Position numbers and translations under genes: made by a program
NCBI GenBank assembly: GCA_016223245.1
Contig: JACRPL010000005.1
Span: forward strand, 1 to 64,000
Direction of reading: 5' to 3'
Source of the DNA: Candidatus Saganbacteria bacterium
GTDB taxonomy: Bacteria > Margulisbacteria > WOR-1 > XYC2-FULL-46-14 > XYC2-FULL-37-10
Length of the DNA stretch: 64,000 nucleotides
In this document: in pieces, positions 34,751-57,172 of the stretch
How the letters are laid out: each line of letters starts with the position of its first letter
How positions within the stretch are numbered: the stretch's first letter is position 1
The notes under the pieces: generated by a model
Told to the model about the DNA's origin: nothing
The model's database searches: none
Seen by the model: only the letters and a program-made list of their open reading frames with translations

Positions 34751-34830
34751 ATAAGCCCCCTTCATAAAGCTTGCTTTAATATTAAACTAACAGAAAAATT
34801 TGTCAAGAGGAATTTTTCGTGTAAGCTAAA

Positions 34831-37505: not shown

Positions 37506-37517
37506 ATTTTTCCCAAT

Positions 37518-37600: not shown

Positions 37601-37610
37601 ATTATATTCT

Positions 37611-40412: not shown

Positions 40413-40730
40413 TCAGCTTTCTGCTTTCACATGGCACTTTGCGCAATTTGCGGCTACGGCAAATGCTTTCCCTTTTTCCTTATGGCATATTCCACAAAAT
40501 TTGCCCTTACTTATGTCGGCCATTTTAATCTTGTTCGCGCCTGATTTCATCTTTGCAATGATCGCAGGATGGCAGGTTTTACAAGTCATCTTTGCGACAG
40601 CAAGGTGCTTTGCATGCGAGAATGTTACAGGAGACTGTGTCTTACCCGGAAAACTTACATCTTTTGGCGCAGCTATTGCAACCAATTGCAATGCGAAAAT
40701 CGCTAATAGGACCAATGCGGATTTCTTCAA
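40413..40730 (-). CDS. Periplasmic triheme cytochrome c7-like protein
   Basis: The 105-residue protein has a signal peptide (SALVLLAIFALQLVAIA) and three heme sites CKTCH, CGICH and CAKCH. Distal histidines are visible in VTFSHAKHLAV. Size and spacing match the c7/PpcA type and the three-heme module also found in tandem in nanowire-like proteins. It would shuttle electrons through the periplasm between inner-membrane quinol oxidases and outer-membrane conduits. It lies directly downstream of the ResB/CcsA heme-attachment pair on the same strand. Confidence 0.85.
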   Translation of the reverse strand: MKKSALVLLAIFALQLVAIAAPKDVSFPGKTQSPVTFSHAKHLAVAKMTCKTCHPAIIAKMKSGANKIKMADISKGKFCGICHKEKGKAFAVAANCAKCHVKAES

Positions 40731-41564: not shown

Positions 41565-42549
41565 ATATCATAATCCCCACTCCTATTGTCAAAAATAGAA
41601 ATCCTATAAAAACCGCGGGTATCCCCGGATCCATTTTCACCTGAAGCCCGGTAAATTCCGTGGCTCCGATCAATTTAAATGTATACCCTTGAACGGATAT
41701 CGGTTTGTTTTTAACAAGCCAGCCAATTCCCGGAATAAAAGCGGCGGGAGTTGTCGCTTCGTAAGTATCAATAGCCGTCCCGTGAAGCAAATGCAAGTCA
41801 GGCATAATATCTTCGACTTGGAACATTTGATTTGTGGCTTTGTAAGTTGAAATGCTTCCTTTGTATATAGGTATGTTTTCCACAACTCCCCCGGGGCCCT
41901 TAACTTCAACAACACCTTTTAACCCGAAACTGGATTGATAGAATTTGACGCCCTTATATGCCAGAGGGTTATTGACAAAGATCGTTTTGCGCAGCACTTC
42001 TTTGCTCCCGTCAATAACGGAAAGATCGGAAGTAAAAGAGGTTGGCCTTCCGCTTGCGTCGAACTTGGCATTAAAATCATTAAGCTTAACGGAAAAATTC
42101 TTATGAGGCTCAAAATAGGAAGACCCCTTTTCAATATTGATGTTATCGGAAAATCCCGCTATTGCTCCGTAGATAGCTCCAAGATATATAATAAGAACGC
42201 TCACATGCGCAAAAAAAGAACCCCATTTGTAAATGCTCAATTGCCCGCGCAACGCGCTCGTTAGCCTCTTTAAGCTGCAGACAAAGATCGAACATCCAAG
42301 CAATATCAAGACTAGGTTGAAAACAAAAGAATAATAAAAATTTGTTAATCCCAAAAATACAAAGAGCCCGGCAAAGGCTTCGCCATAGAGTTTTAGATAC
42401 AATTCGTAGGCTTCTCGTTGAGGGATGACGGTCCCGATAATCGAGATTAACACCAAAATAATTATCAGTATGACTGCAAAAACGTTTGAAGCGAAGAGAT
42501 CCCATGCCTGCCGGCAGGCAGGCCAAATTCTTGACAAAAAATCTTTCAC
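41551..42549 (-). CDS. resB: Cytochrome c biogenesis protein ResB
   Basis: The 332-residue protein starts at GTG 42549 after GGAGG. It has helices near residues 20-40, 60-85, 105-130 and 305-325, and a large periplasmic domain (residues ~135-300) with NNPLAYKGVKFYQSSFGLKG, the ResB signature. It partners with CcsA. Residues 10-16 (PACRQAW) are encoded by the palindrome TGCCTGCCGGCAGGCA, which is a repeat found elsewhere, so the repeat has entered this coding sequence in frame. The gene is divergent from the tetraheme operon. Confidence 0.9.
   Translation of the reverse strand: MKDFLSRIWPACRQAWDLFASNVFAVILIIILVLISIIGTVIPQREAYELYLKLYGEAFAGLFVFLGLTNFYYSFVFNLVLILLGCSIFVCSLKRLTSALRGQLSIYKWGSFFAHVSVLIIYLGAIYGAIAGFSDNINIEKGSSYFEPHKNFSVKLNDFNAKFDASGRPTSFTSDLSVIDGSKEVLRKTIFVNNPLAYKGVKFYQSSFGLKGVVEVKGPGGVVENIPIYKGSISTYKATNQMFQVEDIMPDLHLLHGTAIDTYEATTPAAFIPGIGWLVKNKPISVQGYTFKLIGATEFTGLQVKMDPGIPAVFIGFLFLTIGVGIMIYVKR
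42505..42520. repeat. Palindrome TGCCTGCCGGCAGGCA inside resB
   Basis: This perfect 16-bp palindrome also occurs at 10950-10965 inside the GH16-like lipoprotein start and within the family-C repeats (46636-46651; one mismatch at 37540 and 19330). In both coding positions it is read through as residues like PA(C/G)R. Confidence 0.75.
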
Positions 42550-42598: not shown

Positions 42599-43063
42599 AT
42601 GTCTAATTTCAAAAATTACGAGCACATTTTAAGGTTAGTCATCGCATTAGTTGTTTTAGTTGTCGTTTTCTTGGTCGTCAGGTCACAATTCATCCCGAAA
42701 GATTTTTGGAAATACGGACATTATAGAGGCGGCTCGGTAAAAGAGAACATGGACCGTCCGCGAAATTATGCCGGAAGCACAACCTGCAAAGATTGCCACG
42801 AAGACAAGGTCAATCTTTGGTCAAAAAATGCCCATAAAACTGTTATGTGCGAAAATTGCCATGGAGCGCTTCTCAAACATACAGAGGACCCAACTTCTCT
42901 AAAGCCTTCGATCCCCAAAAAAAGATCGCACTGCCTCCTTTGCCATTCGAGAAACATCTCAAAGCCAAAGTCCTTCCCGCAAATAGACAATAATGCGCAT
43001 AATCCGGGCCAGAAATGCTTCGAGTGCCATAACCCGCACGATCCAATGGAAGGATTAAAATAA
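42599..43063 (+). CDS. Membrane-anchored tetraheme cytochrome c
   Basis: The 154-residue protein starts at ATG 42599 and has an uncleaved N-terminal helix (LRLVIALVVLVVVFLVV, residues ~10-27). Four heme sites follow: CKDCH, CENCH, CLLCH and CFECH, with extra histidines (SKNAHKTVM, NNAHNPGQ). The first gene of a four-gene respiratory operon, it probably receives electrons from the Fe-S/NrfD module. The longer in-frame ATG lies inside divergent resB and is not used. The stop overlaps the next start (TAATG). Confidence 0.85.
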   Translation: MSNFKNYEHILRLVIALVVLVVVFLVVRSQFIPKDFWKYGHYRGGSVKENMDRPRNYAGSTTCKDCHEDKVNLWSKNAHKTVMCENCHGALLKHTEDPTSLKPSIPKKRSHCLLCHSRNISKPKSFPQIDNNAHNPGQKCFECHNPHDPMEGLK

Positions 43064-43815
43064 TGAAATTATCAAGACGTGAATTTTTGGAGCTTTCCGG
43101 AAAATCAGTACTAGCGATGCTAGCCTTGAGCCTTCCAAAAAAATTACTAGCGATGCCCGAAGAAATGGCGAAATTCGATTGGGAAGATTATTATTGGGGA
43201 TACGGGATCGACATTGAAAAATGCATTGGCTGCGGCAAATGCGTAAAAGCCTGCAAAGTTGAAAACAATGTACCGGATGAGCCCTTCTTCTTTAGGACTT
43301 GGATCGAGCGCTATGTCGAGAGAAAAGACGATAAGATCGAAGTTGATTCTCCAAACGGAGGCAAGGACGGGTTCCCCGAATTAAAAAACAAAAAAGACAT
43401 TAAAAAATCGTTTTTTGTGCCAAAGATCTGCAACCATTGCGAGCATCCCCCATGCGTCCAGGTTTGTCCTGTCGGCGCTACATATAAGACAAAAGACGGG
43501 GTCGTGCTTGTTGATCCGGATTATTGTATTGGCTGCAGGTATTGCATCCAAGCCTGCCCTTACGGAGCGCGCTTCCTCCATCCCGAAAAAAGGGTCGCCG
43601 AAAAATGCACGCTTTGCTATCACAGGATAACAAAGGGATTGAGGCCAATGTGCGTCGAGGCCTGCCCTACCGGGACGAGGATCTTTGGGAATCTGAAAGA
43701 CAATAACAGCATAATAAACAAATTCTTAAAAACAAAAAAGATAAATGTTCTAAAACAGCATCTGGGGACTAAGCCCAAAGCATATTACGCCGGAATGGAC
43801 AAAGAGGTCAGATAA
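43063..43815 (+). CDS. Tat-exported four-cluster ferredoxin-like subunit (NrfC/HybA type)
   Basis: The 250-residue protein has a twin-arginine signal (LSRREFLELSGKSVLAML) and four 4Fe-4S binding groups: CIGCGKCVKAC, CNHCEHPPCVQVC, CIGCRYCIQAC and the split group CTLC...CVEAC. It is the electron-transfer subunit of NrfD-type respiratory complexes and should lie on the periplasmic face of the membrane. Its gene overlaps the tetraheme gene upstream and the nrfD-like gene downstream by one base each. No molybdenum catalytic subunit is adjacent. Confidence 0.92.
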   Translation: MKLSRREFLELSGKSVLAMLALSLPKKLLAMPEEMAKFDWEDYYWGYGIDIEKCIGCGKCVKACKVENNVPDEPFFFRTWIERYVERKDDKIEVDSPNGGKDGFPELKNKKDIKKSFFVPKICNHCEHPPCVQVCPVGATYKTKDGVVLVDPDYCIGCRYCIQACPYGARFLHPEKRVAEKCTLCYHRITKGLRPMCVEACPTGTRIFGNLKDNNSIINKFLKTKKINVLKQHLGTKPKAYYAGMDKEVR

Positions 43816-44996
43816 TGAGCGAAATTTCACTAATGCTTTCAAAGATAATGCCCTTCATCCAGGGATTTATCTATCCAAACGACATCGAACTCCATTGGGG
43901 GATCTTGATCGTTCTTTATCCTTATATTACGGGCCTTGTTGCCGGCGCTTTTATTTTAGCCTCTCTCGCGCGCGTATTTAATGTTTCCGAAGTAAAAGCA
44001 ACTTATAGGCTTTCACTCCTTACGGCTTTCGCATTTCTATCGACCGCGACACTGCCCCTCCTTGGGCATTTAGGACACCCCGAACGCGCACTCGAAATAC
44101 TATTCACGCCAAAGCTTGAATCGGCAATGGCAATGTTCGGGTTTGTTTATGCCTGGTACCTCATGGCTGTTTTATGCCTTGAGATATGGTTCGATTATAG
44201 GAAAGATATCGTTCTGCGGTCAGCAAATGAAAAAGGCCTTAAAAAAATATTTTATACTGTATTGACCTTGGGTTCAAAGAATATATCAAGCGAAGCGCTT
44301 GCTTTGGACGAAAAGATCGGAAGGGTCATCACAATAATCGGCATCCCATCGGCTTTCATGCTGCATGGTTATGTCGGCTTTATCTTTGGGTCTGTTAAGG
44401 CCAATCCTTGGTGGAATACCACCTTAATGCCTATAATATTCTTGATGTCCGCCATGGTCTCGGGCATCGCCATGGTCATGCTTGTTTATATGGTTACGCA
44501 ATGGTTAAGGAAAAAAGCCGTCGATATGCCTTGCGTTGATACGATCAGGCTCTATTTGTTCAATATTTTCCTGGTCGACTTTGCTCTTGAAATGCTTGAT
44601 CTGATACATAGGATCTACGCGGCGGAAGAATCCTTCGATGTCTTGTCCATATTGATGAAGGGGAACCTCTTTTGGACGCAGTTCGTAGGCCAGATACTTG
44701 TCGGAACGATAGTTCCATTGGCGCTCCTCGCTCTCACCTTTCTATTTAAAACGAGCCCTTCTATCCGAAAATCATTCTATTTCGTATCGGCCATCCTCAC
44801 TTTGGCGGGTATATTCTTCATGAGATGGAACGTCGTGATCGGCGGACAGCTTTTTTCAAAAAGTTTTTTGGGATTTACCACATATAAATTAAATCTTATA
44901 GGCATCGAAGCATATGCTGCCATAGCTATTGCTATCCTCCCATTCGTGATCCTTTCGGCCCTTATATACATATTGCCTCCCTGGGAAAAAGAATAA
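43815..44996 (+). CDS. nrfD: NrfD/PsrC-family quinone-interacting membrane subunit
   Basis: The 393-residue protein has about nine to ten transmembrane helices with NrfD/PsrC blocks: ELHWGILIVLYPYITGLVAGAF in parts near residue 30, LLGHLGHPERAL near 95 and the later LFNIFLVDFALEMLDL. It exchanges electrons with the quinone pool and the Fe-S subunit. In complexes of the Nrf, Psr, Qrc and Cbc types it either oxidises or reduces quinol. The lack of a Mo subunit and the multiheme neighbours favour quinol oxidation. Confidence 0.9.
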   Translation: MSEISLMLSKIMPFIQGFIYPNDIELHWGILIVLYPYITGLVAGAFILASLARVFNVSEVKATYRLSLLTAFAFLSTATLPLLGHLGHPERALEILFTPKLESAMAMFGFVYAWYLMAVLCLEIWFDYRKDIVLRSANEKGLKKIFYTVLTLGSKNISSEALALDEKIGRVITIIGIPSAFMLHGYVGFIFGSVKANPWWNTTLMPIIFLMSAMVSGIAMVMLVYMVTQWLRKKAVDMPCVDTIRLYLFNIFLVDFALEMLDLIHRIYAAEESFDVLSILMKGNLFWTQFVGQILVGTIVPLALLALTFLFKTSPSIRKSFYFVSAILTLAGIFFMRWNVVIGGQLFSKSFLGFTTYKLNLIGIEAYAAIAIAILPFVILSALIYILPPWEKE

Positions 44997-46361
44997 ATGA
45001 AAGAAAAGCTCGATCGGCTGTTTCGCTCCCGCCTAGGAAAGATAGCCTTGATCCTTTTTGGATTATTTATTTTAGCCATACTTTCATTCGCACATTACAG
45101 CGAAAGCCCCTCCTTCTGCAACTCATGCCATATAATGAAACCCTATTATCAAGCGTGGAAAACATCCAAGCACAATTTCGTCAAATGCGTCGACTGCCAT
45201 TACCCGGCTGACGCCTCCCCAAAACAATTCGCATGGAAAAAATTCCAATCGATGTCCCAGGTCGCGAAATATGTGACGCGCACTTATGGGACCAGGCCTT
45301 ACGCAGAGATCGACGATTCGAGCTGCCTTCGCGGAGGTTGCCACGCGAAAAGGCTCCTGGAAGGCAAGGTTACATACAAAGAACATGTGGTTTTCGACCA
45401 TGGCCCCCACCTGCTTAACCTTAGGCAAGGGAAGCAGCTGCGATGTACATCCTGCCATTCACAGATCGTTCAGGGGAGGCATATTGAAGTAACGGATTCA
45501 ACTTGTTTTATCTGCCACTTCAAAAAAGACAAAAATGGAAAACGCCCATCGATCTCGAAATGTTCCACTTGCCACAAAATGCCCGAAAGACTGATCAAGC
45601 ATGGAGGGTTCAGTTTCAGCCACAAGGACTTTGCCGGCGGAAAACAGCTTAACTGCGAAAAATGCCATTCTGATTCGATAATCGGAGAAGGGACAACATC
45701 AAAAGATAAATGCTTAGATTGCCACAACCAGCCCGACAGGATAGCCAAATACAATGACACGACATTTATCCACAAAAATCATGTTGCCGACCATAAGATC
45801 GAGTGCATTAGGTGCCATTCCGAGATAAAACATCAGCTTGGCCGTGTTATTTACCTTCTAGAAAGCCAATGTACGGTTTGCCATACAAAAAAACACGGCG
45901 GCGTACGGGAGATGTATATGGGAATAGGCGGCAAGGGCGTTTCTGATCAACCAAGCCCGATGTTCACCCACCAAGTGGACTGTGCCGGATGCCATATAAC
46001 GCCGACTATTGCACCCGATGACGTATTATTTAAAGGGCAGACCTACAAGACCACGCAAAAAAGCTGCAGCGGATGCCATGCCGAAGCTTATGAGTCGGTA
46101 CTTGACAGCTGGAAAGAACAAATGGACAAATCATTAAATGAGATAGAGTCAAAGCTTGCAAAAGCAAAGGACATTCTTGCCGCTTACGAAGAAAAACAAG
46201 ATAAAAAGTACATAAAAAGCTTGACCCTATATAACGAAGCCAAATACAATTATTACTTCGTCAAAGATGCCAAAGGCGTCCATAATATTGATTATGCCGA
46301 AGCTCTGCTTAAAAAAGCAGGCGAGGATCTGGACTCTATTTTTTCTTATACCCTTCCATAA
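44997..46361 (+). CDS. Twelve-heme NapC/NirT-type membrane cytochrome
   Basis: The 454-residue protein has an N-terminal membrane helix (IALILFGLFILAILSFA), then a NapC/NirT-like domain (CNSCH, CVDCH, with HIMKPYYQAWKTSKHNF) and a long heme-rich region. In total I count eleven CXXCH sites plus one CX4CH (CLRGGCH near residue 110). The C-terminal ~80 residues are a helical, coiled-coil-like segment without hemes (LNEIESKLAKAKDILAAYEE). It starts immediately after the nrfD-like stop. It should transfer electrons from the quinol-oxidising module to periplasmic or outer-membrane cytochromes. Its length and heme number exceed those of normal NapC (four hemes). Confidence 0.85.
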   Translation: MKEKLDRLFRSRLGKIALILFGLFILAILSFAHYSESPSFCNSCHIMKPYYQAWKTSKHNFVKCVDCHYPADASPKQFAWKKFQSMSQVAKYVTRTYGTRPYAEIDDSSCLRGGCHAKRLLEGKVTYKEHVVFDHGPHLLNLRQGKQLRCTSCHSQIVQGRHIEVTDSTCFICHFKKDKNGKRPSISKCSTCHKMPERLIKHGGFSFSHKDFAGGKQLNCEKCHSDSIIGEGTTSKDKCLDCHNQPDRIAKYNDTTFIHKNHVADHKIECIRCHSEIKHQLGRVIYLLESQCTVCHTKKHGGVREMYMGIGGKGVSDQPSPMFTHQVDCAGCHITPTIAPDDVLFKGQTYKTTQKSCSGCHAEAYESVLDSWKEQMDKSLNEIESKLAKAKDILAAYEEKQDKKYIKSLTLYNEAKYNYYFVKDAKGVHNIDYAEALLKKAGEDLDSIFSYTLP

Positions 46362-46548
46362 CGTTCTTCAAGCCGTTCAATACCGATTCCGCGACCGATG
46401 GATGAAGTGCGACCTGAAATCCCACTGTATTATCTGGAATTACGGTTGTGCCACTTACAGATTTAACCATCTTAAAGTCAAAAATAACCTCGGTATTCGA
46501 AGATTTTAGCTCGACGAAATTTGAATAGAATATCTTATCTTTTGCCAT
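46336..46548 (-). CDS. Small DUF3467-like protein
   Basis: The 70-residue protein reads IFYSNFVELKSSNTEVIFDF, VIPDNTVGFQVALHPSVAESV and ends LKNVMEGYKKK. The pattern (Y-x-N, V-x-FDF, and the ending L-x-N-x-x-x-x-Y) resembles DUF3467 proteins, shorter than usual. A strong ribosome site AAGGAGG lies 7 nt upstream of ATG 46548, supporting a real gene. Its 3' end overlaps the 12-heme gene tail by 26 bases on the opposite strand. Function unknown. Confidence 0.6.
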   Translation of the reverse strand: MAKDKIFYSNFVELKSSNTEVIFDFKMVKSVSGTTVIPDNTVGFQVALHPSVAESVLNGLKNVMEGYKKK

Positions 46549-46561
46549 TTATTTGCCTCCT

Positions 46562-46665
46562 TAACCGCGACGCTTGTCCCGATTCCCACATCGGGATTTA
46601 GCCGCTGGTCGCAAGCAAACCTGCGAGTGAACCCTGCCTGCCGGCAGGCACGGCTCGCGGTTTGT
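46562..46665. repeat. Family-C double palindrome
   Basis: Two hairpin units lie in tandem: TAACCGCGACGCTTGTCCCG with ATCGGGATTTAGCCGCTGGT, then CTGCGAGTGAACCCTGCCTG, CCGGCAGGCACGG and CTCGCGG. The 19293-19436 element has the same two units in the reverse order. It fills the gap between the small DUF3467-like gene and the barrel gene. Confidence 0.65.
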
Positions 46666-46757
46666 TAAATCGATTTTACCATAGAAAACATTCTAAAAAC
46701 AGTGAAATTTTCCCCTGAATTTTAAGATATATATACGGCTCATAAAGGAAGCAATAC

Positions 46758-47972
46758 ATGGCTGATATGGATGCGGGAGCTGTAAGCTCAAAACCAATAA
46801 CATTCTACTTTGAAGCTGGGACTTCTGTCGTAAAAGACGAAGTTTTGACCCCTGATTTTAAAGAAAAGACTTTAAACAGCGGAAAGACTGTTGAAAGCAC
46901 GACATCGTTCAGGCTCCGCGGGACCTACGATAAATGGCAACTTAATATTAATGCCGATTATGCAAAGCACGTTTCAGGCGCTGTAAACCCATTTTATCCA
47001 GAAGGCTTTCGTCCTTATGAACTAAGTTTTGGCGCGCAGGACTTATCTGACGGCCATTTTGATTTTAAAGTTGGAAGATTCCCCGTGCTTGTCGGAAGAA
47101 CTTATGGCATTGTCGATGGCGGACAAGCTACTGTCCACTCCCAATCGGGAGATCTATCGTTGACAGGATTTGGCGGATTTAAACCGGAAAAAACGACTTT
47201 GAAGATCGGCAAAAAATTGGCTTTTGGCGCGATAGCAACGGCAGATATCGGAAACACATTCTTGAACTTGAATTACCATGAAGTATTAGATGGCGACCGC
47301 GAACCTGAACGAAAGCGGCTTGGCTTCCAAGCAATGAATGAGAGCTTTGATTCACTTGAGATCAGGACTTCCAATGAATATGATCCGTTAAATAATACAG
47401 TTGTAAGACTACAGCTTGGGTCGGATTATCAATTAACCAAAGGTCTAAGGCTTGGGACAGAAGGCACAAAAGTTGATCCAACATTTGAACCCGGATCATT
47501 TTTTAACACTTTCCCGCACTTTCCCTACTACAAAATACTGGCCAGGGCACAATATAGGGCGGATAAACTTAAACTAGCTTTGAATTTCGGGCAGACAAGA
47601 TTCGAATCCGATACCGTAAATACCGTAAGCGGCGACATAACTTTTCATGGTGCAAATATAGGCTCGATAGTTTCTCGCGGAAGCAGCGTTCCATACCTGA
47701 ATTATACCGAAGCCCATGCAGGATATGACTTTAATATCAAAGATCGGTTAACAATAAGCGTGAACGGAAGCGCATATTTTTATGATGACGCGCAATTTAA
47801 TGGTAACCGCGCCTATTATGCGGGCGGATCGGTTAGATGGGAATTCGCTTCTAATTTCGTCCTTAACGCCTCCGGAGCATTCAGGAAGAATGTTGACGGC
47901 GTTATTGACCCGTTGCTTCAAGCAGGGTTAACTTTTTATTACGCAAATATATTTTCGAAGGAGAAAAAATAA
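46758..47972 (+). CDS. Predicted outer-membrane beta-barrel of the cytochrome operon, no visible signal peptide
   Basis: The 404-residue protein has repeated amphipathic strands (TTSFRLRGTYDKWQLNINADY, HFDFKVGRFPVLVGRTYG, VVRLQLGSDYQLTKGL, YYAGGSVRWEFASNFVLNASG in parts) and resembles a 16-20-strand porin. The N-terminus MADMDAGAVSSKPITFYFEAG has no hydrophobic signal; the upstream codons in frame meet a stop five codons before the ATG, and a ribosome site AAAGGAAG precedes it. The signal may have been lost or the 5' end rearranged near the adjacent repeat. It precedes two multiheme proteins, as in porin-cytochrome conduits. The stop overlaps the next ATG. Confidence 0.7.
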   Translation: MADMDAGAVSSKPITFYFEAGTSVVKDEVLTPDFKEKTLNSGKTVESTTSFRLRGTYDKWQLNINADYAKHVSGAVNPFYPEGFRPYELSFGAQDLSDGHFDFKVGRFPVLVGRTYGIVDGGQATVHSQSGDLSLTGFGGFKPEKTTLKIGKKLAFGAIATADIGNTFLNLNYHEVLDGDREPERKRLGFQAMNESFDSLEIRTSNEYDPLNNTVVRLQLGSDYQLTKGLRLGTEGTKVDPTFEPGSFFNTFPHFPYYKILARAQYRADKLKLALNFGQTRFESDTVNTVSGDITFHGANIGSIVSRGSSVPYLNYTEAHAGYDFNIKDRLTISVNGSAYFYDDAQFNGNRAYYAGGSVRWEFASNFVLNASGAFRKNVDGVIDPLLQAGLTFYYANIFSKEKK

Positions 47973-48823
47973 TGGGCGACGGGCAGATATTCGAAATCTT
48001 CAATAAAATAGACCGTGCGCTCGCAATACAAAGATTCCCAAAACATAAAGGATACCTTAATGATGAAGACAAATGTTCCGCTTGCCACAAAACAACAAAG
48101 CCTCCTGAAAAAGGCCAGCCGCCGCTCGAACTATGGGTCCCTTTTTTCCCCCATGAAAAGCACGACACTTGTTCAGATTGCCATCCATCAAAAGACGGAA
48201 AAGAATTCTTGCCGAATAAGCAAAACTGCTTAGGCTGCCATGACGACGATATCCACCCTGAAACAGGGACCAGATGCACAAACTGCCACGCCCTGCCAGA
48301 TGACCCAAAAACAGGGCACAAAGGCCAATTTCCGAAACATAATCCAAATGGAACCACTTGCGTTGAGTGTCACGAAATAAAAGATAAAAAAATGGCAAGA
48401 AGGCCACATCCAGAAAATTGGCCTCAAGACCACGGTAAGCCCGGTCCAATAAAGAAAGAACAATGCGGACAATGCCATGATTCAAGCCCAAAAGTTAAAG
48501 CATGTGCAACATGCCATGCAAAGCCAAGTTTGGCGCCTGAATCCCATTTAAAAACCGGAAGGCCCGATCCAAACTATAGATTATTTCTTCATATGCTCGA
48601 TGCAAGGAAAAAAATGATCGACTGCACTTCTTGCCATGATACAAGGACATTTTGCGCAAGCTGCCATGCGAGTTATAAAAGAATGCCGAATGAGCACTTT
48701 GCGCCAAATTTTATGAGGGCTCACGGTCCGCAGGCAAAACAGGATCCCGAATATTGCTCGGCATGTCATGGAATAGGACAAAGATGCTTCCAGTGCCATC
48801 CCGGAGGAATAAATAAAAAATGA
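47972..48823 (+). CDS. Eleven-heme cytochrome c, no visible signal peptide
   Basis: The 283-residue protein has eleven CXXCH sites: CSACH, CSDCH, CLGCH, CTNCH, CVECH, CGQCH, CATCH, CTSCH, CASCH, CSACH and CFQCH. Histidines spread between them provide distal ligands (FFPHEKHDTC, GQFPKHNPNG). The start IFEIFNKIDRALAIQRFPKH is not a signal peptide although heme attachment requires export; the protein may need an unconventional start or be partly decayed. It is translationally coupled to the barrel gene (TAATG) and to the next gene (ATGA). It likely sits inside or beside the barrel as the transmembrane electron conduit. Confidence 0.8.
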   Translation: MGDGQIFEIFNKIDRALAIQRFPKHKGYLNDEDKCSACHKTTKPPEKGQPPLELWVPFFPHEKHDTCSDCHPSKDGKEFLPNKQNCLGCHDDDIHPETGTRCTNCHALPDDPKTGHKGQFPKHNPNGTTCVECHEIKDKKMARRPHPENWPQDHGKPGPIKKEQCGQCHDSSPKVKACATCHAKPSLAPESHLKTGRPDPNYRLFLHMLDARKKMIDCTSCHDTRTFCASCHASYKRMPNEHFAPNFMRAHGPQAKQDPEYCSACHGIGQRCFQCHPGGINKK

Positions 48824-50571
48824 TCATTGCCCAAAGAATTGGAAGAACGGGACTTAAGCTGGCATTAGCCGCATTAATGCACTTACCTGCAATAGGCTTT
48901 GTTTCGTGCGGTCCGCAAGGAGCAACATCGGTCAGCTTAACAAAAGTCCACAGCCAGATCGGATGGGCGGATCCAAAATCGCCTAACTTCCACGGAGAAT
49001 ATTTAAAAACAACGGATTTCAATCTCTTGTCCTGCGCGTCATGCCATGGCGCAGACCTGCGGGGGAAGAAAGACGTCGTTTCATGTTTTTCGTGCCACGA
49101 TTTCCCGCATGCTAAAGATTTTGAAAAACTGCACAAAGTTGAGATATTAAAAAACAATGGGGTTGCTCAATGCATAAAATGCCATGAAGATTTAAAAGAA
49201 GTTAAAGATGGAAAACCTGGATGCAGATCATGCCATGATGGCGGGACATTTGGTTTTACGGACCACTCATCAATTGAAGAGGTGATCGGATCGCACGGCG
49301 ATCAGGCAAAAACACGCGGCACCAAGCCTTGCCAAACATGCCATGCATTAGGCGATACGGAAAAGCCGCAAACAGTATTTTTTGACGCTGACGGAAAAGA
49401 AAGAAATCCTAATCTTTGCACCGAATGCCATACCGCCCCGATCCAAGTGGGAACGCTGATGCACTGGGGCATAGCAAATTGGAAGCTGACATCGAAAACA
49501 GATAGCGGATCTCATCCAGACTATCTTTTTACAAATAAATGCACACCTTGCCATGGAAAATATCCGGCGCTCGCAGGTAAAACACAAGGAGATGTTCAAG
49601 TTATAAAAGGATGTTCGTCCTGCCATGCTGGATTTTATGGAAAATTTGAACATAAAGATCCATTAGAAAAACATAAGGCTCACCTAACCGATGGAGCGAG
49701 TGAGCTTGGGGTTTCAAGATTGGATGTTGCAGGGAAAAGATGCGTAAAATGCCATGGATTTTCAAATGATAAAGATGTTCTGGACCAATATACCGGAAAA
49801 CAAAAAACCATTCCTTCTTGCACAAAATGCCATAGCAATAGCCATTTACAGGACGATTGGACAAATGCGGACAATGGCGGGAAGCATAGGCTTGATGTTG
49901 GCCAGAACGGATTTAATGCCTGTAAACAATGCCATGGAGATAGCTTTGACGGAACGGCAATAATTCCCGGATGCGCGACATGCCACGCCGAAGGAAACAA
50001 TTTCGGCAAAGTGCCCCACAACGGAAACGGATGGGCAGAAGACTCCGGTCACGGACTATATGTTAAAGCTAATGGAACGCCACGATGCGAAACTTGCCAC
50101 AGCATCGGCGACAGCAATAAAAAGAAAACAAACTGGCCCGATGGGACCGAATTGCCCACATGTTTCAAGTGCCACGACGGCCCTACCGGAAAACCTGCCT
50201 CTCATGTGCCGGCATGGGCCGCATATTCTCCGATAAATCCGATAATGCATTCCGGTTTCTTACTAACAAAATATTATAATCCAGAAACTTGGGTCATGAA
50301 ATTGGGTGCCGACGGCGGGAATTGCGAAAGCTGCCATTTTGACAAATCAAAAGCATGGACAACTTGTACCTCATGCCATGCCCCATACCCTGTACAGCAT
50401 ATTACATATAACCCAAAATGGTTATCACCGGGAGATAAAAATTTCCATGGAATATTACATAAAGATGATTTTAGCTCGTCATGCGCAACTTTTTGCCATG
50501 GAACAGATCTGAAGGGCGGATCATCACAAGTAGATTGCACAATATGCCACGACATCAAACCTAAGCCTTAG
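48820..50571 (+). CDS. Eighteen-heme surface lipoprotein cytochrome
   Basis: The 583-residue protein has a signal (LKLALAALMHLPAIGFVSC) with a lipobox-like GFVSC, placing Cys at residue 30. I count seventeen CXXCH sites and one CX3CH (CATFCH near residue 558). Two sequence halves share FHG...LK..DF..SCA and CHG.DL.G motifs at the first hemes (residues ~57-80) and the last hemes (~543-570), hinting at an internal duplication or circular symmetry. It is expected on the outer membrane as the terminal extracellular reductase or nanowire-like component. It converges, with no spacer, on the minus-strand cytochrome operon. Confidence 0.85.
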   Translation: MIIAQRIGRTGLKLALAALMHLPAIGFVSCGPQGATSVSLTKVHSQIGWADPKSPNFHGEYLKTTDFNLLSCASCHGADLRGKKDVVSCFSCHDFPHAKDFEKLHKVEILKNNGVAQCIKCHEDLKEVKDGKPGCRSCHDGGTFGFTDHSSIEEVIGSHGDQAKTRGTKPCQTCHALGDTEKPQTVFFDADGKERNPNLCTECHTAPIQVGTLMHWGIANWKLTSKTDSGSHPDYLFTNKCTPCHGKYPALAGKTQGDVQVIKGCSSCHAGFYGKFEHKDPLEKHKAHLTDGASELGVSRLDVAGKRCVKCHGFSNDKDVLDQYTGKQKTIPSCTKCHSNSHLQDDWTNADNGGKHRLDVGQNGFNACKQCHGDSFDGTAIIPGCATCHAEGNNFGKVPHNGNGWAEDSGHGLYVKANGTPRCETCHSIGDSNKKKTNWPDGTELPTCFKCHDGPTGKPASHVPAWAAYSPINPIMHSGFLLTKYYNPETWVMKLGADGGNCESCHFDKSKAWTTCTSCHAPYPVQHITYNPKWLSPGDKNFHGILHKDDFSSSCATFCHGTDLKGGSSQVDCTICHDIKPKP

Positions 50572-52152
50572 TTAAAGCCCTCCGGCTGTAATTGGATTTC
50601 CATGATGATGGCATGATGTGCAGCTGCTAAAACTATTTATATGAGCAACGCCTCCAGGGCCGCTTGTTTTTGAATGGCAGGCGGAGCATAGGCTGTTCAA
50701 ATTATTGGCATCGCCTGCCGTATTTATCTTATTTGGATTGATCCTGACATTTTTTGAAACACCTATCGATTGGGTCGGCGCAATATAGGGCCAATTGTAC
50801 GGCGGTCCCGACTGGGCTCCGTTGTCAGCATATTTTGTCCCATCAACGATATCAATAATGCTATACAAATTGCTGTCCCAGGTTTGGTCGTTATAATGTG
50901 ATCCGTGCGGATTATGGCAATCGGTACATGCCATAGCCAAGACTGCAGTGGATGGATTATTTGCCGAAGGCCTCGCGGAACCATTCCCATGCCTGTCAGT
51001 CTGGTAGGACGTTCCAATATTTATCATTTGGCTTGAAGGAGCGATTGATTGGTTCGGATTTGAAACAGAATTTGGGAATGTGCCGCTATGGCACGACAGG
51101 CAAAAGTTTATTATCGATCCCCTATAGTCTGTTGCCCCGGCACCTGACCAAACGGTTGCGCGATCTTTAGGGTCGATCAAAGTCTCTATCATCCCGGCAG
51201 TGTTGGTCCTTTGTTTTGCCGCGTGCGAATTATGGCAGTTCCCGCATGCTAATTTCGAACCGCTGTAAGATTGGTCGGATGAAGATAGATCATGATGCGA
51301 GTTTACCGTCGTATAGCTTCCGGCGGACCCTGCCCCGATAAAGGTTGATGTCCCAAGCAATAGGGATTTGATATCGACAGGCCCAGGACCGCTTGAACTA
51401 TGGCATGTATAACACAAATTAGTCTGGTTATTTTTTAACAAGGGCACAGCCGATGCCGCGTGCGGAGTATGGCAGCTGCTGCACCCGTTTGCGGCCATTG
51501 CGGGCGATGTCTTATGTATCGTCGAGTTCCACCCCGTTTTATCGTGGCATGTCATGCACAATGCGCCCGCAGAGTTTTGTTTCACCAGGAATTTGCCATT
51601 GGTATTATCGTGCGGATCATGGCAAGTGATGCATTGGAGTTTATAGTTTTTGTCCAGTTTTACTTGGCCTGTTAGATTTGAAGGATTTACAAGTTCCCCA
51701 TTTAGGACGGCAAGATTATTATCGTATACAAATGAGACTGGATGGCTGCCCGAAAGATTTGTCCCGATATTTGCGGATCCTTGAATGTTTGCGGCTAACC
51801 CGGAAATAATGCCCATAGAGGTTGTTGAACCAACAGCAACGGTTCCATCGTGGCATCCAAGGCAAAGTTTTGAAGCGCCATCGGGCTGTCCGGGATTTGA
51901 TTTGAGCGTTAAACTGACCGATTGGTTATACGGCGTAAAAGATTGGACAGTGGAGGCATGGTTCCACAGAGGATCCGCCGCGCTTGATCCGTGCGGGACA
52001 TGGCAAAAAACGCAAATTTGTGTTTCGGCTGCCGCTTTGTATGTCCCGATACCCGACGCCGACAGGTCATGTTTTGTTCCTTTTATTTCTGCCATAACAG
52101 AACATGAGGAAAACACCAAGATTATAATTATTAATTCAACATTTTTTTTCAT
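50572..52152 (-). CDS. Eleven-heme exported cytochrome with doubled-CXXCH modules
   Basis: The 526-residue protein has a signal (VELIIIILVFSSCSVMA) and eleven CXXCH sites, CVFCH, CLGCH, CITCH, CMTCH, CSSCH, CYTCH, CGNCH, CLSCH, CTDCH, CSACH and CTSCH. Several are followed by an extra His as CHxPH or CHDPH, as in doubled-CXXCH domains. The first four hemes (residues ~20-215) align with the complete tetraheme protein at 54755-55300 (KHDL...CVFCHVPH, CLGCHDG, CITCHDPH, CMTCH). It is probably extracellular. It is the last gene of a six-gene operon and is coupled by ATGA to the NHL gene upstream. Confidence 0.85.
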   Translation of the reverse strand: MKKNVELIIIILVFSSCSVMAEIKGTKHDLSASGIGTYKAAAETQICVFCHVPHGSSAADPLWNHASTVQSFTPYNQSVSLTLKSNPGQPDGASKLCLGCHDGTVAVGSTTSMGIISGLAANIQGSANIGTNLSGSHPVSFVYDNNLAVLNGELVNPSNLTGQVKLDKNYKLQCITCHDPHDNTNGKFLVKQNSAGALCMTCHDKTGWNSTIHKTSPAMAANGCSSCHTPHAASAVPLLKNNQTNLCYTCHSSSGPGPVDIKSLLLGTSTFIGAGSAGSYTTVNSHHDLSSSDQSYSGSKLACGNCHNSHAAKQRTNTAGMIETLIDPKDRATVWSGAGATDYRGSIINFCLSCHSGTFPNSVSNPNQSIAPSSQMINIGTSYQTDRHGNGSARPSANNPSTAVLAMACTDCHNPHGSHYNDQTWDSNLYSIIDIVDGTKYADNGAQSGPPYNWPYIAPTQSIGVSKNVRINPNKINTAGDANNLNSLCSACHSKTSGPGGVAHINSFSSCTSCHHHGNPITAGGL

Positions 52153-53162
52153 TTGATAAACCTAAATACCTGTACTCGATTGTTATATGAATCCGCGACA
52201 TAGATATGATCTCTCTCGTCTATCGAAATTGCAGCTGGGACCCAAAATTCCCCTTCTTTATTGCCGGATTCGCCAAAGAACAGAAGCAGTCCGCCTTTTC
52301 CGTTAAAGATCTGCACATTATCGAAAGATGAATCGGTTACATAGATATTTTTATTGGAATCGATAGCTATCCCCTTAGGCAGTGAAAAAGATCCGGGAGC
52401 CCTCCCCATTTTTCCGAATTCGCTTTTCTTTTTCCCTTCCGGTGAGTATACTTGGACGCGAAAATTAAGCGAATCGACTACATAAATATTAGACTTTTGG
52501 TCAAGCACTATATACGTCGGATGATTAAGGCCTTCTTTTGTACTCGGAAAACTTGCCACAAAATCGTGGTCGCTGTTGAAGACATCGACAAGCCCCGAAA
52601 TGGCATCTACGACATAAATTCGCTTCAGAACGCTGTCGATCGCTATACCGCATGGCCTGGAAAATATGCCGCGGCCTATTTCGCTTTTATAGTTCCCCGC
52701 GCCATCAAAGAGCAAAACCTTGTTCAATCCGGAATCGGCGACATAAATGTTCCCATTATCGTCCGACGCGGCGGAAACAGGGAGCTTAAGCTCGGTATTT
52801 CCGAATTTCTTGATCTTAAAATATTCTTTCTTCGACAGGTCGAATACATGGACAGCCCCAAGGCCGGTATCGGTAACATATATAATATTATTCTTGGCAT
52901 ATATCCCCTGCGGCCGGACGATATTATCGTTTTGCCCGCGCCCTAGCCCAAAAATAAAGTCAAACAATTTATCTTTGGATTTCTTTTCGATCTTTAAGTC
53001 TTCGGGCTTAGAGAAACTATAAAGATACTCGATCTTTGGCGTTTCGGGGGCGCGAGGCCAGACCAAGCCCGACAAGAAAAAAGACGCTGCAATAAAAAGT
53101 GCGAGCAGAAAGGCTTTATTAGAAATTCCTTTCAAAGGATGAGTACATTCTAGTATATGCAC
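52149..53162 (-). CDS. Exported NHL-repeat beta-propeller protein 1
   Basis: The 337-residue protein has an N-terminal hydrophobic signal/anchor (FLLALFIAASFFLSGLVW) and about six NHL repeats between residues 80 and 337, with the pattern PxGIAID...IYVxDxxxxxVQVF (e.g. PKGIAIDSNKNIYVTDSSFDNVQIF). Such propellers bind proteins or ligands and often accompany multiheme cytochromes in anaerobic bacteria. Its start lies 44 bases inside the barrel gene and its stop overlaps the 11-heme gene start. A structural or assembly role in the conduit is inferred. Confidence 0.85.
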   Translation of the reverse strand: MHILECTHPLKGISNKAFLLALFIAASFFLSGLVWPRAPETPKIEYLYSFSKPEDLKIEKKSKDKLFDFIFGLGRGQNDNIVRPQGIYAKNNIIYVTDTGLGAVHVFDLSKKEYFKIKKFGNTELKLPVSAASDDNGNIYVADSGLNKVLLFDGAGNYKSEIGRGIFSRPCGIAIDSVLKRIYVVDAISGLVDVFNSDHDFVASFPSTKEGLNHPTYIVLDQKSNIYVVDSLNFRVQVYSPEGKKKSEFGKMGRAPGSFSLPKGIAIDSNKNIYVTDSSFDNVQIFNGKGGLLLFFGESGNKEGEFWVPAAISIDERDHIYVADSYNNRVQVFRFIK

Positions 53163-54753
53163 TTGAGTTTTGGTCCCTCCTTTCTGAATTAATGCTGAAT
53201 TTGATCGTTGAATCGCCCAACCTATAGTTTACATCAGTTAAATTCCTAATTCCATATTGATCCGTGATCGCTGTATCGGTTGTCGTTTTACTGCGCACAA
53301 GCGATAATTGTTCGTTCAAGGTAAACCCATTTCTCGATAGATTGGCTTTGAACGAATCGATTGTATAATTCACGGTTTGCGTAATTTCATTGCCAAATTT
53401 CTCTTCATGGCGCAATTCAAGAACATTTTGCGGAACTGGAGCATAGCTTACAGCCGCGGCTACGCCCCTGTAATTGTAAGTATTGACCGTCGTGACAGAT
53501 ACGTCGCCTTCAATATACCAATTGTTAGCCAAATTGATGCCAACTATCCAATCATTCAAATCCTGGTTCTTGGCGCTGCTTGACGCAAGGGTAAAAACTT
53601 CTCCGCTAAACCTGTTCAGAGTCCTTTTGTATGTAAGCTTAATTCCTTCTTCTATAAGGTAACTCAAATACCCGTCAAGATACAAAGCTTTCCCGTTTGC
53701 GTTAGCGCCCGAATAGGTTTCGTCCCTGTAATCAGCGTTCAAATAAAGTTTTTTTGCAAAGTTAAAACTGACAGACGACCGCCTAGATACCAACCCCTGC
53801 GACCTATCGCTTGATTGGTCGGCCATGTTAACGCTGCCTGTACCGTAATTAAAAATAAATTCCAAGTAATTCACAGGCTGGATGCTTATTGACGCCCCTA
53901 TTTTTTTTGACCTCTGGTAGTTCTTCTGCCCTGCGGGCATGTCATAATCGACCAAATTAACAGTATCCAAATATTCGGGGTTGATGTTAATATTAGGCGT
54001 CAGCTTAATAGTCGACGTTGCCGATAAATGCTCAAGTTTTTGGTTATAGATGGAGGAGCTTCCTACTTGGTTATATATCTGCTGGTTTGAATAGCTTCCG
54101 GTATAAGCGATCCGATCCCCTACCGCCCCTGATTGGTTGAAAGTCAAAAGATTGTCGCGATTTACAAGATTTGCTCCGGTCGAAAAGTATGTATCATCGT
54201 AAAGACTGCTCCGCACATATCGGGCGCTGAAGTTTTGCGAAAAGATAGAATAGCTTATGCCAAGCTCTCCTTTTTTATCGTTCTTGTTTATCCCTTCGCT
54301 TGTTGCAGCTCTTGCGCTTCCGATCTCAAAGCCTCCGGTCAATACGGGCAAGTTCGGCAAGTAATATGAGGCGAAAATCGATGTGCGGTTATCAGCTATC
54401 GGATTGTTGTCGTAGAGCAAATTGGCATAATCTTTCCTGTAAAATGAAGTTGATAAGCGCAGCGCGTCGCGAAAATTGAGCGAATTCGTAAACGTGAAGT
54501 TCTTTAATTCCGCGGCGCCGCGCTGATATTGGAACGAAAGCCCGTACGAGCCGATCCTGTCCTCAATGACATATCCCCTTAAATTTGCAAGATAATCCTG
54601 CGCAAATATCTGCTGGGTCAGGCTGGAATCAAGATAATTTGTTTCGTAGGAATATTTTACCTGCCCAGAAAGCCCTGCCTGCGATGCTGACTGCCAAATA
54701 AGCCATATCGCGGCGCAAATTACATAGAGGGATTTTGGCGCATATTGTGCCAT
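53119..54753 (-). CDS. Outer-membrane beta-barrel of the minus-strand cytochrome operon
   Basis: The 544-residue protein has a signal (LYVICAAIWLIWQSASQA) and about 20 or more amphipathic strands rich in Tyr, Asn and Ser (e.g. FSARYVRSSLYDDTYFS, LYLNADYRDETYSG), ending MYSSFERNF with a terminal Phe, the outer-membrane insertion signal. No family name is certain; it resembles long porins of porin-cytochrome clusters. It lies between a tetraheme protein (one base upstream) and an NHL propeller, which suggests that it houses an electron conduit across the outer membrane. Confidence 0.75.
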   Translation of the reverse strand: MAQYAPKSLYVICAAIWLIWQSASQAGLSGQVKYSYETNYLDSSLTQQIFAQDYLANLRGYVIEDRIGSYGLSFQYQRGAAELKNFTFTNSLNFRDALRLSTSFYRKDYANLLYDNNPIADNRTSIFASYYLPNLPVLTGGFEIGSARAATSEGINKNDKKGELGISYSIFSQNFSARYVRSSLYDDTYFSTGANLVNRDNLLTFNQSGAVGDRIAYTGSYSNQQIYNQVGSSSIYNQKLEHLSATSTIKLTPNININPEYLDTVNLVDYDMPAGQKNYQRSKKIGASISIQPVNYLEFIFNYGTGSVNMADQSSDRSQGLVSRRSSVSFNFAKKLYLNADYRDETYSGANANGKALYLDGYLSYLIEEGIKLTYKRTLNRFSGEVFTLASSSAKNQDLNDWIVGINLANNWYIEGDVSVTTVNTYNYRGVAAAVSYAPVPQNVLELRHEEKFGNEITQTVNYTIDSFKANLSRNGFTLNEQLSLVRSKTTTDTAITDQYGIRNLTDVNYRLGDSTIKFSINSERRDQNSSAYTRMYSSFERNF

Positions 54754-54754
54754 T

Positions 54755-55300
54755 TCATTTTTGGTGGCAGGTTAAGCAAAGGTTGCTGTTCGTATTTTCG
54801 ATGCGCAAAAACCCTCCGCTTGTGCCTTTTTCGTGCGGGTTATGGCAGGTAGCGCATTCGAGCCTGTCTTTGGCCGATCCTTCAAGCGGAAGAGAGCCGT
54901 AAGAGCCCGTGATCTTTCCGCCGACAGACGAATTGTATCCTTGTTTTGTAGGATAAGTGACGGAGAATGGATGGCTGTGGGAATAGTCTGTCGAATTTGA
55001 CCCGACCGACGGCGCAAGCACCCCGTCATGACAGCTTAAGCAAATGGCCGACGAATTCGTCGGTTGGCCAACAGATCCGCCGTAAGTTGTGATATTCCCA
55101 CCGGCGTAAACTTTGCCCGATGGGGCGAGATAAGTTGATGTAGCGCTTTGGTGCGGGACGTGGCAAACTTTGCAGGTTTCTTGGAGATTACCGAATGCGG
55201 CTTTCCCCTTAAGATCATGAACGGAGCCAATGATCCCGCCGAAAGATATTCCGGATAAGAAGAAAATGGCAATGAATAAAACAAGAACCAGCTTACGCAT
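54755..55300 (-). CDS. Exported tetraheme cytochrome c, paralogue of the 11-heme N-terminal module
   Basis: The 181-residue protein has a signal (LVLVLFIAIFFLSGISFG) and four heme sites CKVCHVPH, CLSCHDG, CATCHNPH and CLTCH. The order, spacing and flanks (GSVHDLKGKA before heme 1, SHPFSVTY before heme 3) match the first ~200 residues of the 50572-52152 protein. It may plug the adjacent barrel as the transmembrane cytochrome. It is followed by the barrel gene after a single base. Confidence 0.85.
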   Translation of the reverse strand: MRKLVLVLFIAIFFLSGISFGGIIGSVHDLKGKAAFGNLQETCKVCHVPHQSATSTYLAPSGKVYAGGNITTYGGSVGQPTNSSAICLSCHDGVLAPSVGSNSTDYSHSHPFSVTYPTKQGYNSSVGGKITGSYGSLPLEGSAKDRLECATCHNPHEKGTSGGFLRIENTNSNLCLTCHQK

Positions 55301-55355
55301 TAACTTATCTCCTCCATATATTTATCGAAACTTATAATGAAAAATTTCAGTTTAT

Positions 55356-56450
55356 TCAAAAATTTATTTTAAACCCGACAAGCCGCTTGTTCTGCGAATC
55401 TGCAACAATAACTACACCCTTTGAATTAACAGCGATCCCCATTGGAGAATAGAGCGAAGTTTTCAAATTTGATTCCTTTCCAAGCAGCATCATTGCCTTA
55501 TTATCTTTATCAAAAACAGAAACCACATTGAATATTGCATCCGCAACATAAATTCGGCCTCCTTTATCTATCGCAATGCCCTTTGGCCTCCCAAAAAATC
55601 CAAGCGCATCGCCATGGTCGCCGAACTTCGAAAGAAATTTTAATCTTTGGTCGAATATCTGGACCCTGCTGTTGATCGTATCGACAACATATGTCCGCCC
55701 ATTAGGATCTTTCGCCAAAAATGTCGGATATTTGAATTCGGAATTCCCGCCGCCTTCATGCCCCAAAAAAGAAACAAATTCGCCGTTCGCGTCGAATATT
55801 TGGAGCCGATGGTTCCCGGTATCGGATACGATTATTCTTCCAGCTTTTTCGTCGACCAATATTCCCGACGGCCTTTGGAATTTGCCCGACTCTGTGCCAG
55901 ATCCAGCAATAGATTTCACAAGATTGCCTTCAGGATCGAAAATGAATAATTCATTTAACATCGAATCGGTCACATATATCTTCTTTGAGCTATCAACCGC
56001 AATTCCGATCGGGTCTTTCAATATATTGCGCCCGATATCATTCGGTTTTGCGATCCTTTTTTCATTTAATACAACGATCCTGCCCTTTTCGGAATCGGCT
56101 AAATATATATTGTCGTCTTGATCGACCGCGACGCCTGTGACAGTTGAAAATCCGTCTTCGACGCCTTTTGATCCGAACAAGAAAAGCCCTACTTTTTCGA
56201 AGAACCCCTTGTCTTGTGAAAGCTGTTTTTTTCCGATCTCAAAAACTGCGCTGCTTTGGTCGGCGGCATATGCCGCACCTGAAAACAATATAAGAATCGT
56301 GAGCAAGACAATGCTGTAACCTACGAATGAATTCGCGGTTACAATATTTCTTCTAATTTTGCGAGGAACCGAGACTTCAGTCTCAGGTTCCGAGCACAAA
56401 AGACAATTCCATTTTTTTTTCAATAATAATCTTTGTGGCACTGGATGCAT
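55356..56450 (-). CDS. Exported NHL-repeat beta-propeller protein 2
   Basis: The 364-residue frame has a hydrophobic signal near residues 45-63 (YSIVLLTILILFSGAAYAAD) and about six NHL repeats from residue 95 to the end (GVAVDQDDNIYLADSEKGRIVV, PSGILVDEKAGRIIVSDTG in parts). Residues 1-40 are unlike the family: they are encoded by a palindromic repeat (GGAACCGAGACT/AGTCTCAGGTTCC near 56375) and overlap the upstream cytochrome gene, so translation may start inside, e.g. at a non-ATG codon before NSFVGYSIV. It pairs with the other NHL protein in the same operon. Confidence 0.75.
   Translation of the reverse strand: MHPVPQRLLLKKKWNCLLCSEPETEVSVPRKIRRNIVTANSFVGYSIVLLTILILFSGAAYAADQSSAVFEIGKKQLSQDKGFFEKVGLFLFGSKGVEDGFSTVTGVAVDQDDNIYLADSEKGRIVVLNEKRIAKPNDIGRNILKDPIGIAVDSSKKIYVTDSMLNELFIFDPEGNLVKSIAGSGTESGKFQRPSGILVDEKAGRIIVSDTGNHRLQIFDANGEFVSFLGHEGGGNSEFKYPTFLAKDPNGRTYVVDTINSRVQIFDQRLKFLSKFGDHGDALGFFGRPKGIAIDKGGRIYVADAIFNVVSVFDKDNKAMMLLGKESNLKTSLYSPMGIAVNSKGVVIVADSQNKRLVGFKINF
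56365..56400. repeat. Hairpin GAGGAACCGAGACTTCAGTC / TCAGGTTCC
   Basis: The arms GGAACCGAGACT and AGTCTCAGGTTCC pair with a one-base bulge. The adjacent TGAATTCGCGGTTA (56326-56340) matches one arm of the hemC hairpin at 28397-28425. It falls in the 5' part of the second NHL gene. Confidence 0.5.
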
Positions 56451-57172
56451 AGATCCTCCTTTTTGAATTTCAGGTAATATTCTTCGTTCGAATTGTGCAT
56501 ATGGCAGTTAGTGCAGCCAAGCTTTAGCATTTTGATTGTAGCCTTTGCCGAGAGAAAATGGTGAGGTTCCAGTTTGTGGCAAGCTTGGCAGAAATGTTCG
56601 CCTTCGGAATCTTTTTTCAGCAGCTTATCATAGATCGAGCCGTGCGGAGCGTGGCAATCCGAACATTGGACATTATTTTTTCCATGCGCTCGTTTTTCGT
56701 ATACTTTCTTTCTATCATCATGGCATTGGTAGCAAACTTCTTTTGGGGCGGATTTTACAAGAAGTTTGGGGTTTTCGGCCTTATGGGGATCATGGCAATT
56801 AAGGCAGCTGAAACCCGATTGCGCATGGATCGATTTTCCCCATACCGACTGGTCTAGTTTTCCGCCTTTTGAAAAGTGGCATGCGCCGCAAAGCTTAATG
56901 ACAGCGTCCGAATCCAAGTTGGCTGGATTTATTATTTTTGTTTTGTCCATTGTTTCTTGATGGGCGCCGCCGGGGCCATGGCATGCTTCGCAAGCGGATT
57001 TATTGGTTTTATTATTGTGCGGATTTTTAAGCCAAAGATCTTTCTTTTCATCGTGGCAGTCAAAGCACTTGTCCTGCCCTATAAAAGCCGCGGGCTCGGC
57101 AAAAGACCTCTCCGCCCAATAAGGCATCATTAAAAATATCGGGACTAACAATAGCGGGGAAAACAATTTCAT
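56420..57172 (-). CDS. Periplasmic nine-heme cytochrome c (MtrA/DmsE-like)
   Basis: The 250-residue protein has a signal (LLVPIFLMMPYWAERSFA) and nine CXXCH sites: CFDCH, CEACH, CGACH, CLNCH, CYQCH, CSDCH, CQACH, CTNCH and CIQCH. The pattern CLNCHDPH...CYQCH...CSDCHAPHG...CQACH resembles decaheme MtrA/DmsE-type electron carriers, with one heme fewer. It is the first gene of the six-gene minus-strand operon and should bring electrons across the periplasm to the barrel. Intron sequence lies immediately upstream. Confidence 0.82.
   Translation of the reverse strand: MKLFSPLLLVPIFLMMPYWAERSFAEPAAFIGQDKCFDCHDEKKDLWLKNPHNNKTNKSACEACHGPGGAHQETMDKTKIINPANLDSDAVIKLCGACHFSKGGKLDQSVWGKSIHAQSGFSCLNCHDPHKAENPKLLVKSAPKEVCYQCHDDRKKVYEKRAHGKNNVQCSDCHAPHGSIYDKLLKKDSEGEHFCQACHKLEPHHFLSAKATIKMLKLGCTNCHMHNSNEEYYLKFKKEDLCIQCHKDYY

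Follow-up and report, generated by a model that had tools for sequence, protein, structure and literature searches.

A probable extracellular electron transfer island composed of three modules of known kinds in a Saganbacteria genome

Does a dense cluster of multihaem cytochrome genes in a Saganbacteria genome encode a new type of electron conduit, or is it made of parts known elsewhere? The question is raised by positions 42599-57172 of a 64,000-nucleotide stretch of DNA (the window; contig JACRPL010000005.1, assembly GCA_016223245.1) from a groundwater bacterium of the Saganbacteria (WOR-1), a lineage related to Cyanobacteria. A sequence-only reading had taken these genes for a probable extracellular electron transfer island, in which a module for quinol oxidation is joined by two sets of barrel and cytochrome genes, and had proposed that the sets may form a new paired conduit. 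The island stands: extracellular electron transfer is a well-supported function for it, as judged by homology. The new conduit is not supported, since homology and neighbourhood comparison show the modules apart in relatives. By sequence comparison the island consists of three modules of known kinds: a quinol-oxidising module (genes A-D), a barrel and cytochrome trio (E-F-G) and a six-gene OmcE-type set (H-M). The parts themselves are known; what is new is that putative electron-export genes occur in Saganbacteria, that the OmcE-type locus is rearranged there, and that a multi-phylum cluster exists around gene M.

The source genome comprises 1.65 Mb in 24 contigs, with an estimated completeness of 100%. 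Open reading frame (ORF) calls and translation give 13 genes in the interval, not the twelve first listed. Seven cytochromes carry 69 haem motifs, the number counted before (4, 12, 11 and 18 on the plus strand; 9, 4 and 11 on the minus strand): 67 in-frame CxxCH, one CX4CH in D and one CX3CH in G. The CxxCH pattern occurs 168 times genome-wide against 33 for the reversed control, and most of the listed sites are inside the window; the motifs of the island are thus not due to chance. Pfam confirms the Fe-S, NrfD, NapC-like and NHL domains assigned earlier. The two strands do meet tail to tail with no spacer, G stopping at 50571 (plus) and M at 50572 (minus). The plus-strand genes, however, are not the single operon they were taken for. 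Genes A-D overlap or abut, and a gap of 396 bp holding a repeat and an antisense ORF separates D from E; third-position GC is 39-40% in E-F-G versus 48-51% in A-D. The plus strand is therefore two units. The gap features are:

46336..46548, minus strand: small DUF3467-like ORF, antisense, overlapping the 3' end of D (PF11950 5e-5, 23.7 bits, just below the cut-off of 25)
46561..46671, no strand: palindromic dispersed repeat, with about 50 further copies in the genome

Misbinning of the contig was ruled out, as copies of this repeat are scattered over many of the genome's contigs and neighbouring genes are syntenic in two related genomes, G022 and G028.

The minus-strand set contains six genes:

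56420..57172, minus strand: H, 9-haem MtrA/DmsE-like periplasmic cytochrome (6r2q chain A, 2.1e-20)
55356..56450, minus strand: I, exported NHL beta-propeller (PF01436 7.6e-41)
54755..55300, minus strand: J, 4-haem OmcE-type nanowire subunit, putative (7tfs 7.8e-8; 9yuq 1.5e-13; hhalign probability 100 to the OmcE-like set)
53119..54753, minus strand: K, predicted exported outer-membrane barrel of 544 aa (signal peptide, C-terminal Phe, amphipathic-strand excess z 2.2)
52149..53162, minus strand: L, exported NHL beta-propeller (PF01436 3.2e-27)
50572..52152, minus strand: M, 11-haem cytochrome, an OmcE-like 4-haem domain plus seven haems (OmcE 7tfs, E 1.3e-28, residues 10-205)

Relatives of M were gathered from 80 loci (L027-L106), 79 of which were scored, and span 14 phyla. 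An NHL gene adjoins the M relative in 73 of the 79. Of these loci, 42 have an OmcE-like gene nearby and 47 have a gene of barrel size, both counts being limited by contig ends; the loci were selected by M, and the figures describe the company that M keeps rather than how common the locus is. The NHL propellers, previously read as the sign of an unfamiliar arrangement, are thus normal at an OmcE-type locus. They are also present in comparable cytochrome clusters of Desulfovibrio ferrophilus (PMC9769857). The canonical gene order is OmcE-like cytochrome, NHL, 5-haem lipoprotein, barrel of about 680 aa, NHL, 11-haem cytochrome. In Saganbacteria it is 9-haem H, NHL, OmcE-like J, barrel K, NHL, M, and this order is retained in G018 ('Candidatus Saganbacteria bacterium NC_groundwater_1859', contig JACRKQ010000056.1, 27,789 bases). 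A 13-14-haem cytochrome gene is sometimes found near the canonical loci.

J is homologous to OmcE over its full length and has four haems. It keeps all eight haem-ligand histidines and, like OmcE, ends directly after haem 4. All 19 aligned rows, which include OmcE, J, M and canonical relatives, share the CxxCH residues (12 ligand-motif residues) and four distal histidines without exception. H and the canonical 5-haem lipoprotein are homologous (hhalign probability 99.3, 132 columns), yet H has nine haems and no lipobox. A tree built from 75 M proteins, with 14 named phyla represented, places the two Saganbacteria sequences on a long branch of their own (100%) that is nested within no donor phylum. 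Relatives of K are found in two phylum genomes, G018 and G028 (40-53% identity). A match of K to the canonical barrels (hhalign probability 97) was discarded as an artefact of G018's own K in the set; the repeat without it gave 3.6. A single-sequence scan of genome contigs with K yielded no match, and E has no homology to the barrels of about 680 aa. K may be either an analogue or a too diverged relative of the canonical barrel. Because K is not detectably homologous to it, H-M is called a variant; judged by its gene content, it is a divergent version of the OmcE-type nanowire locus. Beside the H-M operon, at 57466-60072, there are fragments of a reverse transcriptase (RVT_1, group II intron-like) and of a transposase (DUF772). 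Between these fragments is an ORF (58260-59462) with a third-position GC of 28% and no Pfam match.

Module A-D comprises:

42599..43063, plus strand: A, membrane-anchored tetrahaem cytochrome, CbcS-like (four CxxCH, N-terminal transmembrane (TM) segment)
43063..43815, plus strand: B, Tat-signal 4Fe-4S subunit of the DsrO/TtrB/NrfC family, CbcT-like (NCBIfam DsrO 201 bits, barely passing the cut-off of 200)
43815..44996, plus strand: C, NrfD/PsrC-type quinol-binding membrane subunit, CbcU-like (PF03916 1.7e-39)
44997..46361, plus strand: D, NapC/NrfH-like 12-haem inner-membrane cytochrome (PF03264 2.7e-9; NrfH 72 bits)

Cbc4 (CbcSTU) is made up of a membrane-anchored tetrahaem cytochrome, a DsrO-type Fe-S protein and an NrfD-type subunit (PMC11434368). 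The likeness of A-B-C to it lies in subunit types and order, not in a direct alignment to the CbcSTU of G. sulfurreducens. The A-B-C order is conserved in Saganbacteria and in Desulfobacterota, including Pelovirga (L152). Relatives of A, with 54-62% identity in G018 and G022, also adjoin B-C in Desulfobacterota; C has 78-83% identity to its relatives in G018, G022 and G028 and up to 60% in Desulfobacterota. The NapC/NrfH-like part of D is its N-terminus, and identity is 72% in G022. In G018, a 7-haem and cytochrome-b fusion with a CbcL-like layout (L022:9546-11159, minus strand) follows A-B-C in place of D, which suggests that the D slot is a quinol-oxidoreductase slot. Assignment of D as ImcH was ruled out: it has one N-terminal hydrophobic segment and the odd motif CX4CH, and ImcH is defined by three TM helices and a CX3CH motif (PMC6295460).

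Upstream of A, on the opposite strand, are further genes of electron transfer and haem maturation:

40761..42549, minus strand: ccsA and resB, haem-c maturation (PF01578, PF05140), divergent from A, an arrangement kept in G022 and G028
40413..40730, minus strand: trihaem cytochrome c7, PpcA-like periplasmic carrier, between tatC and ccsA (PF14522 2.5e-15; 3ov0 2.3e-47)
36204..39411, minus strand: FixC-like electron transfer flavoprotein (ETF):quinone oxidoreductase, etfA and etfB (PF01012, PF00766; FixC models)

The genes resB, ccsA, c7 and etfB-etfA-fixC are kept as neighbours of A-D in G022 and partly in G028, where the contig is short. The c7 protein matches Geobacter multidomain c7 structures (3ov0), and its gene is also found beside ccsA/etfB in G022 and G028. 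It is probably the natural periplasmic carrier and a member of the pathway. The gene was absent from the earlier list.

The trio E-F-G contains:

46758..47972, plus strand: E, putative OmbB-type outer-membrane barrel without signal peptide (hhalign probability 96, 195 columns, to Desulfobacterota barrels; amphipathic-strand excess z 2.2)
47972..48823, plus strand: F, OmaB-type 11-haem cytochrome without signal peptide (hhalign probability 97.9, 143 columns, to the 8-9-haem partner gene)
48820..50571, plus strand: G, OmcB-type 18-haem lipoprotein cytochrome (signal with lipobox-like FVSC; hhalign probability 97.6 to partner lipoprotein cytochromes, over 62 columns only)

Relatives of E were found in 6 of 395 sampled Desulfobacterota genomes. 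In five of the six, a gene for an 8-9-haem cytochrome comes next after the barrel gene (about 403-412 aa); four of these five loci continue into a 9-12-haem lipoprotein cytochrome, and the fifth is cut by a contig end. The trio is present as a tandem duplicate in one genome. The ombB-omaB-omcB genes of G. sulfurreducens have the same conduit layout, including the tandem duplication (PMC6148476). This supports E, F and, more weakly, G as counterparts of the Desulfobacterota operon genes, and E-F-G as a homologous trio of OmbB-OmaB-OmcB type whose function is in doubt; the homology is to the Desulfobacterota operons, not to the G. sulfurreducens proteins themselves. The earlier statement that the island does not match OmcB arrangements is thus corrected by gene order and closest relatives.

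The barrel calls for E and K are predictions from homology (E) and sequence pattern. The amphipathic-strand count exceeds that of shuffled sequences to the same degree in both, within the range of the canonical barrel candidates (z 1.9-3.3), and soluble and membrane controls give z -1.5 to 0.1; it is a weak test, as it gives no more than 0.5-0.6 for two further presumed barrels in the window. Neither K nor E has a Pfam or NCBIfam match, the MtrB family included, and G reaches 18.7 bits against the OmcA/MtrC family, for which the cut-off is 209. The genome encodes Omp85/BamA, so barrel insertion is possible and an outer membrane is expected.

Taken together, family membership, haem ligands and gene neighbourhoods make it likely that the island is a Geobacter-like chain which exports electrons from ETF to a nanowire-type H-M system. 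ETF and the FixC-like oxidoreductase would reduce menaquinone; A-B-C and D would oxidise the quinol. The trihaem c7 could then ferry electrons through the periplasm to H, which, in or at barrel K, would hand them to M across the outer membrane. The OmcE-like N-terminal domain of M may join a filament built from J, and the propellers I and L may serve as scaffold or as assembly factors. A second conduit, separately gained and perhaps damaged, would be E-F-G, as E and F have no export signals. The direction of electron flow is probably outward.

Several points weigh against this chain. OmcE-like sequence alone is no proof that J polymerises, and the physiological role of Geobacter cytochrome filaments is itself disputed (PMC11077965, PMC12580347). 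With the G018 sequence excluded, K has no significant homology to the canonical barrels (the hhalign probability of 3.6 given above). AlphaFold models have a mean pLDDT of 30 for E alone and 27 for K with two sequences, and neither is reliable. No signal peptide or hydrophobic leader for E or F was found in any frame upstream, so that the description of both as exported is not supported by their sequence.

E-F-G may instead be a decaying relic, H-M alone being functional; this is a possibility, though a doubtful one. The trio has its own third-position GC, and the dispersed repeat and antisense ORF are directly upstream of E. Of the 57 phylum genomes searched, the other 56 gave no relative of E; 50 genomes carrying M relatives gave none either, nor did plasmids. 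Decay should erode the genes, but all three reading frames are intact, as are the 11 and 18 haem motifs, and the ribosome sites are good. In both E and F the start codon is an ATG preceded by a good Shine-Dalgarno sequence, and the start of E roughly coincides with the mature start of its relatives. Decay after acquisition is the simplest guess for the missing export signals. Fusion of E and F by a frameshift was dropped as an idea: E is closed by a TAA codon, and F is served by an AAGGAG site of its own.

H-M could also be a porin-cytochrome conduit without filaments, in which J and M, as monomeric carriers at the surface or in the periplasm, merely share the OmcE fold. This is unlikely. J is shorter than OmcE (181 versus 232 aa), and the OmcE-like gene accompanies M in just the 42 of 79 loci, contig ends limiting the count. 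Against this, J matches OmcE in its eight ligand histidines and in ending after haem 4. One OmcE haem is ligated by a histidine of the neighbouring subunit (PMC12307469), and retention of the four distal histidines in J therefore fits polymerisation. A further proposal, made tentatively and itself rather unlikely, concerns M as the adaptor at the base of the nanowire. The OmcE-like domain would start the filament, the seven extra haems would take electrons from the barrel-bound cytochrome, and the NHL pair would form a conserved assembly collar. If true, this would be a general cytochrome-nanowire anchoring machine, shared by at least 14 phyla and also by Saganbacteria, the latter with a replaced or strongly diverged barrel.

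The chain could run inwards, so that the quinone module would reduce quinone with electrons taken up from a syntrophic partner, a mineral or Fe(II); this is improbable. A nearby protein (33554-34765) with one haem and barrel-like sequence has a layout that is presumably like that of Cyc2-type iron oxidases. Such conduits are bidirectional, and CbcL-type proteins are found in both oxidisers and reducers (PMC6295460). However, A-D is linked to the ETF and FixC-like genes in related genomes, which points to the oxidation of organic donors. NapC/NrfH-type proteins such as D usually oxidise quinol. The one-haem protein has 403 aa, a signal peptide and a single CxxCH near the N-terminus. It belongs to a second redox cluster (30865-34765, minus strand), which also includes a 7-haem NrfA/c552-family protein (PF02335 1.4e-63) and a barrel-like protein with a signal peptide. 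As for a new dedicated double conduit formed by both operons, the abutting of the two sets hardly rescues an idea that is very improbable: each set is of a different known kind, and the pairing is not conserved, since A-D and H-M are on different contigs in G018, only A-D is in place in G022 (the module ends at D with no conduit after it), and no counterpart of E-F-G turned up in the phylum, 57 genomes of which were searched for E.

A Geobacter-like export chain would matter for two reasons. A 2019 study of Saganbacteria genomes described H2-based and oxygen-based metabolism, and the word 'multiheme' is absent from it (PMC6349859); extracellular respiration in a 1.65-Mb genome beside Cyanobacteria would, if true, widen the energy metabolism of the group. 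Its spread is patchy, with strong relatives of C in 4 of the 74 genomes of the phylum collection (the window genome, G018, G022 and G028), and this speaks against an ancestral trait. Secondly, it is not yet settled how cytochrome nanowires are attached to the outer membrane and supplied with electrons there (PMC12307469). M is a concrete candidate for the anchor, with its OmcE domain joined to seven further haems and, in nearly all loci, a propeller gene next to it; this could be tested in cultured Geomonas or Pelovirga. The multi-phylum OmcE/NHL/11-haem pattern around M may have been described before.

Compared with known systems, H resembles MtrA of Shewanella MtrCAB, but the island has no MtrB- or MtrC-family partner. 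A-B-C has the tetrahaem, Fe-S and NrfD subunits in the same order as the Geobacter Cbc4 menaquinol oxidoreductase; here, however, a 12-haem NapC-like gene follows and ETF genes are linked. E-F-G shares with Geobacter OmbB-OmaB-OmcB the order of barrel, periplasmic cytochrome and outer-membrane lipoprotein cytochrome, and differs in having 11 and 18 haems in F and G instead of 8 and 12 and in the missing signal peptides of E and F. Geobacter OmcE (7tfs) and the related 9yuq can be aligned full-length with J and with the N-terminal part of M, CxxCH and distal histidines being kept, although J is shorter and M bears its seven extra haems. The H-M set differs from the canonical OmcE/NHL/barrel/11-haem locus in its order (the 9-haem gene first, the OmcE-like gene third), in the nine haems of H versus five, in the lack of a lipobox in H, I and L, and in a shorter K with no detectable homology. 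Counterparts of all six kinds of component nevertheless appear to be present in H-M, and an NHL gene adjoins the 11-haem gene in both.

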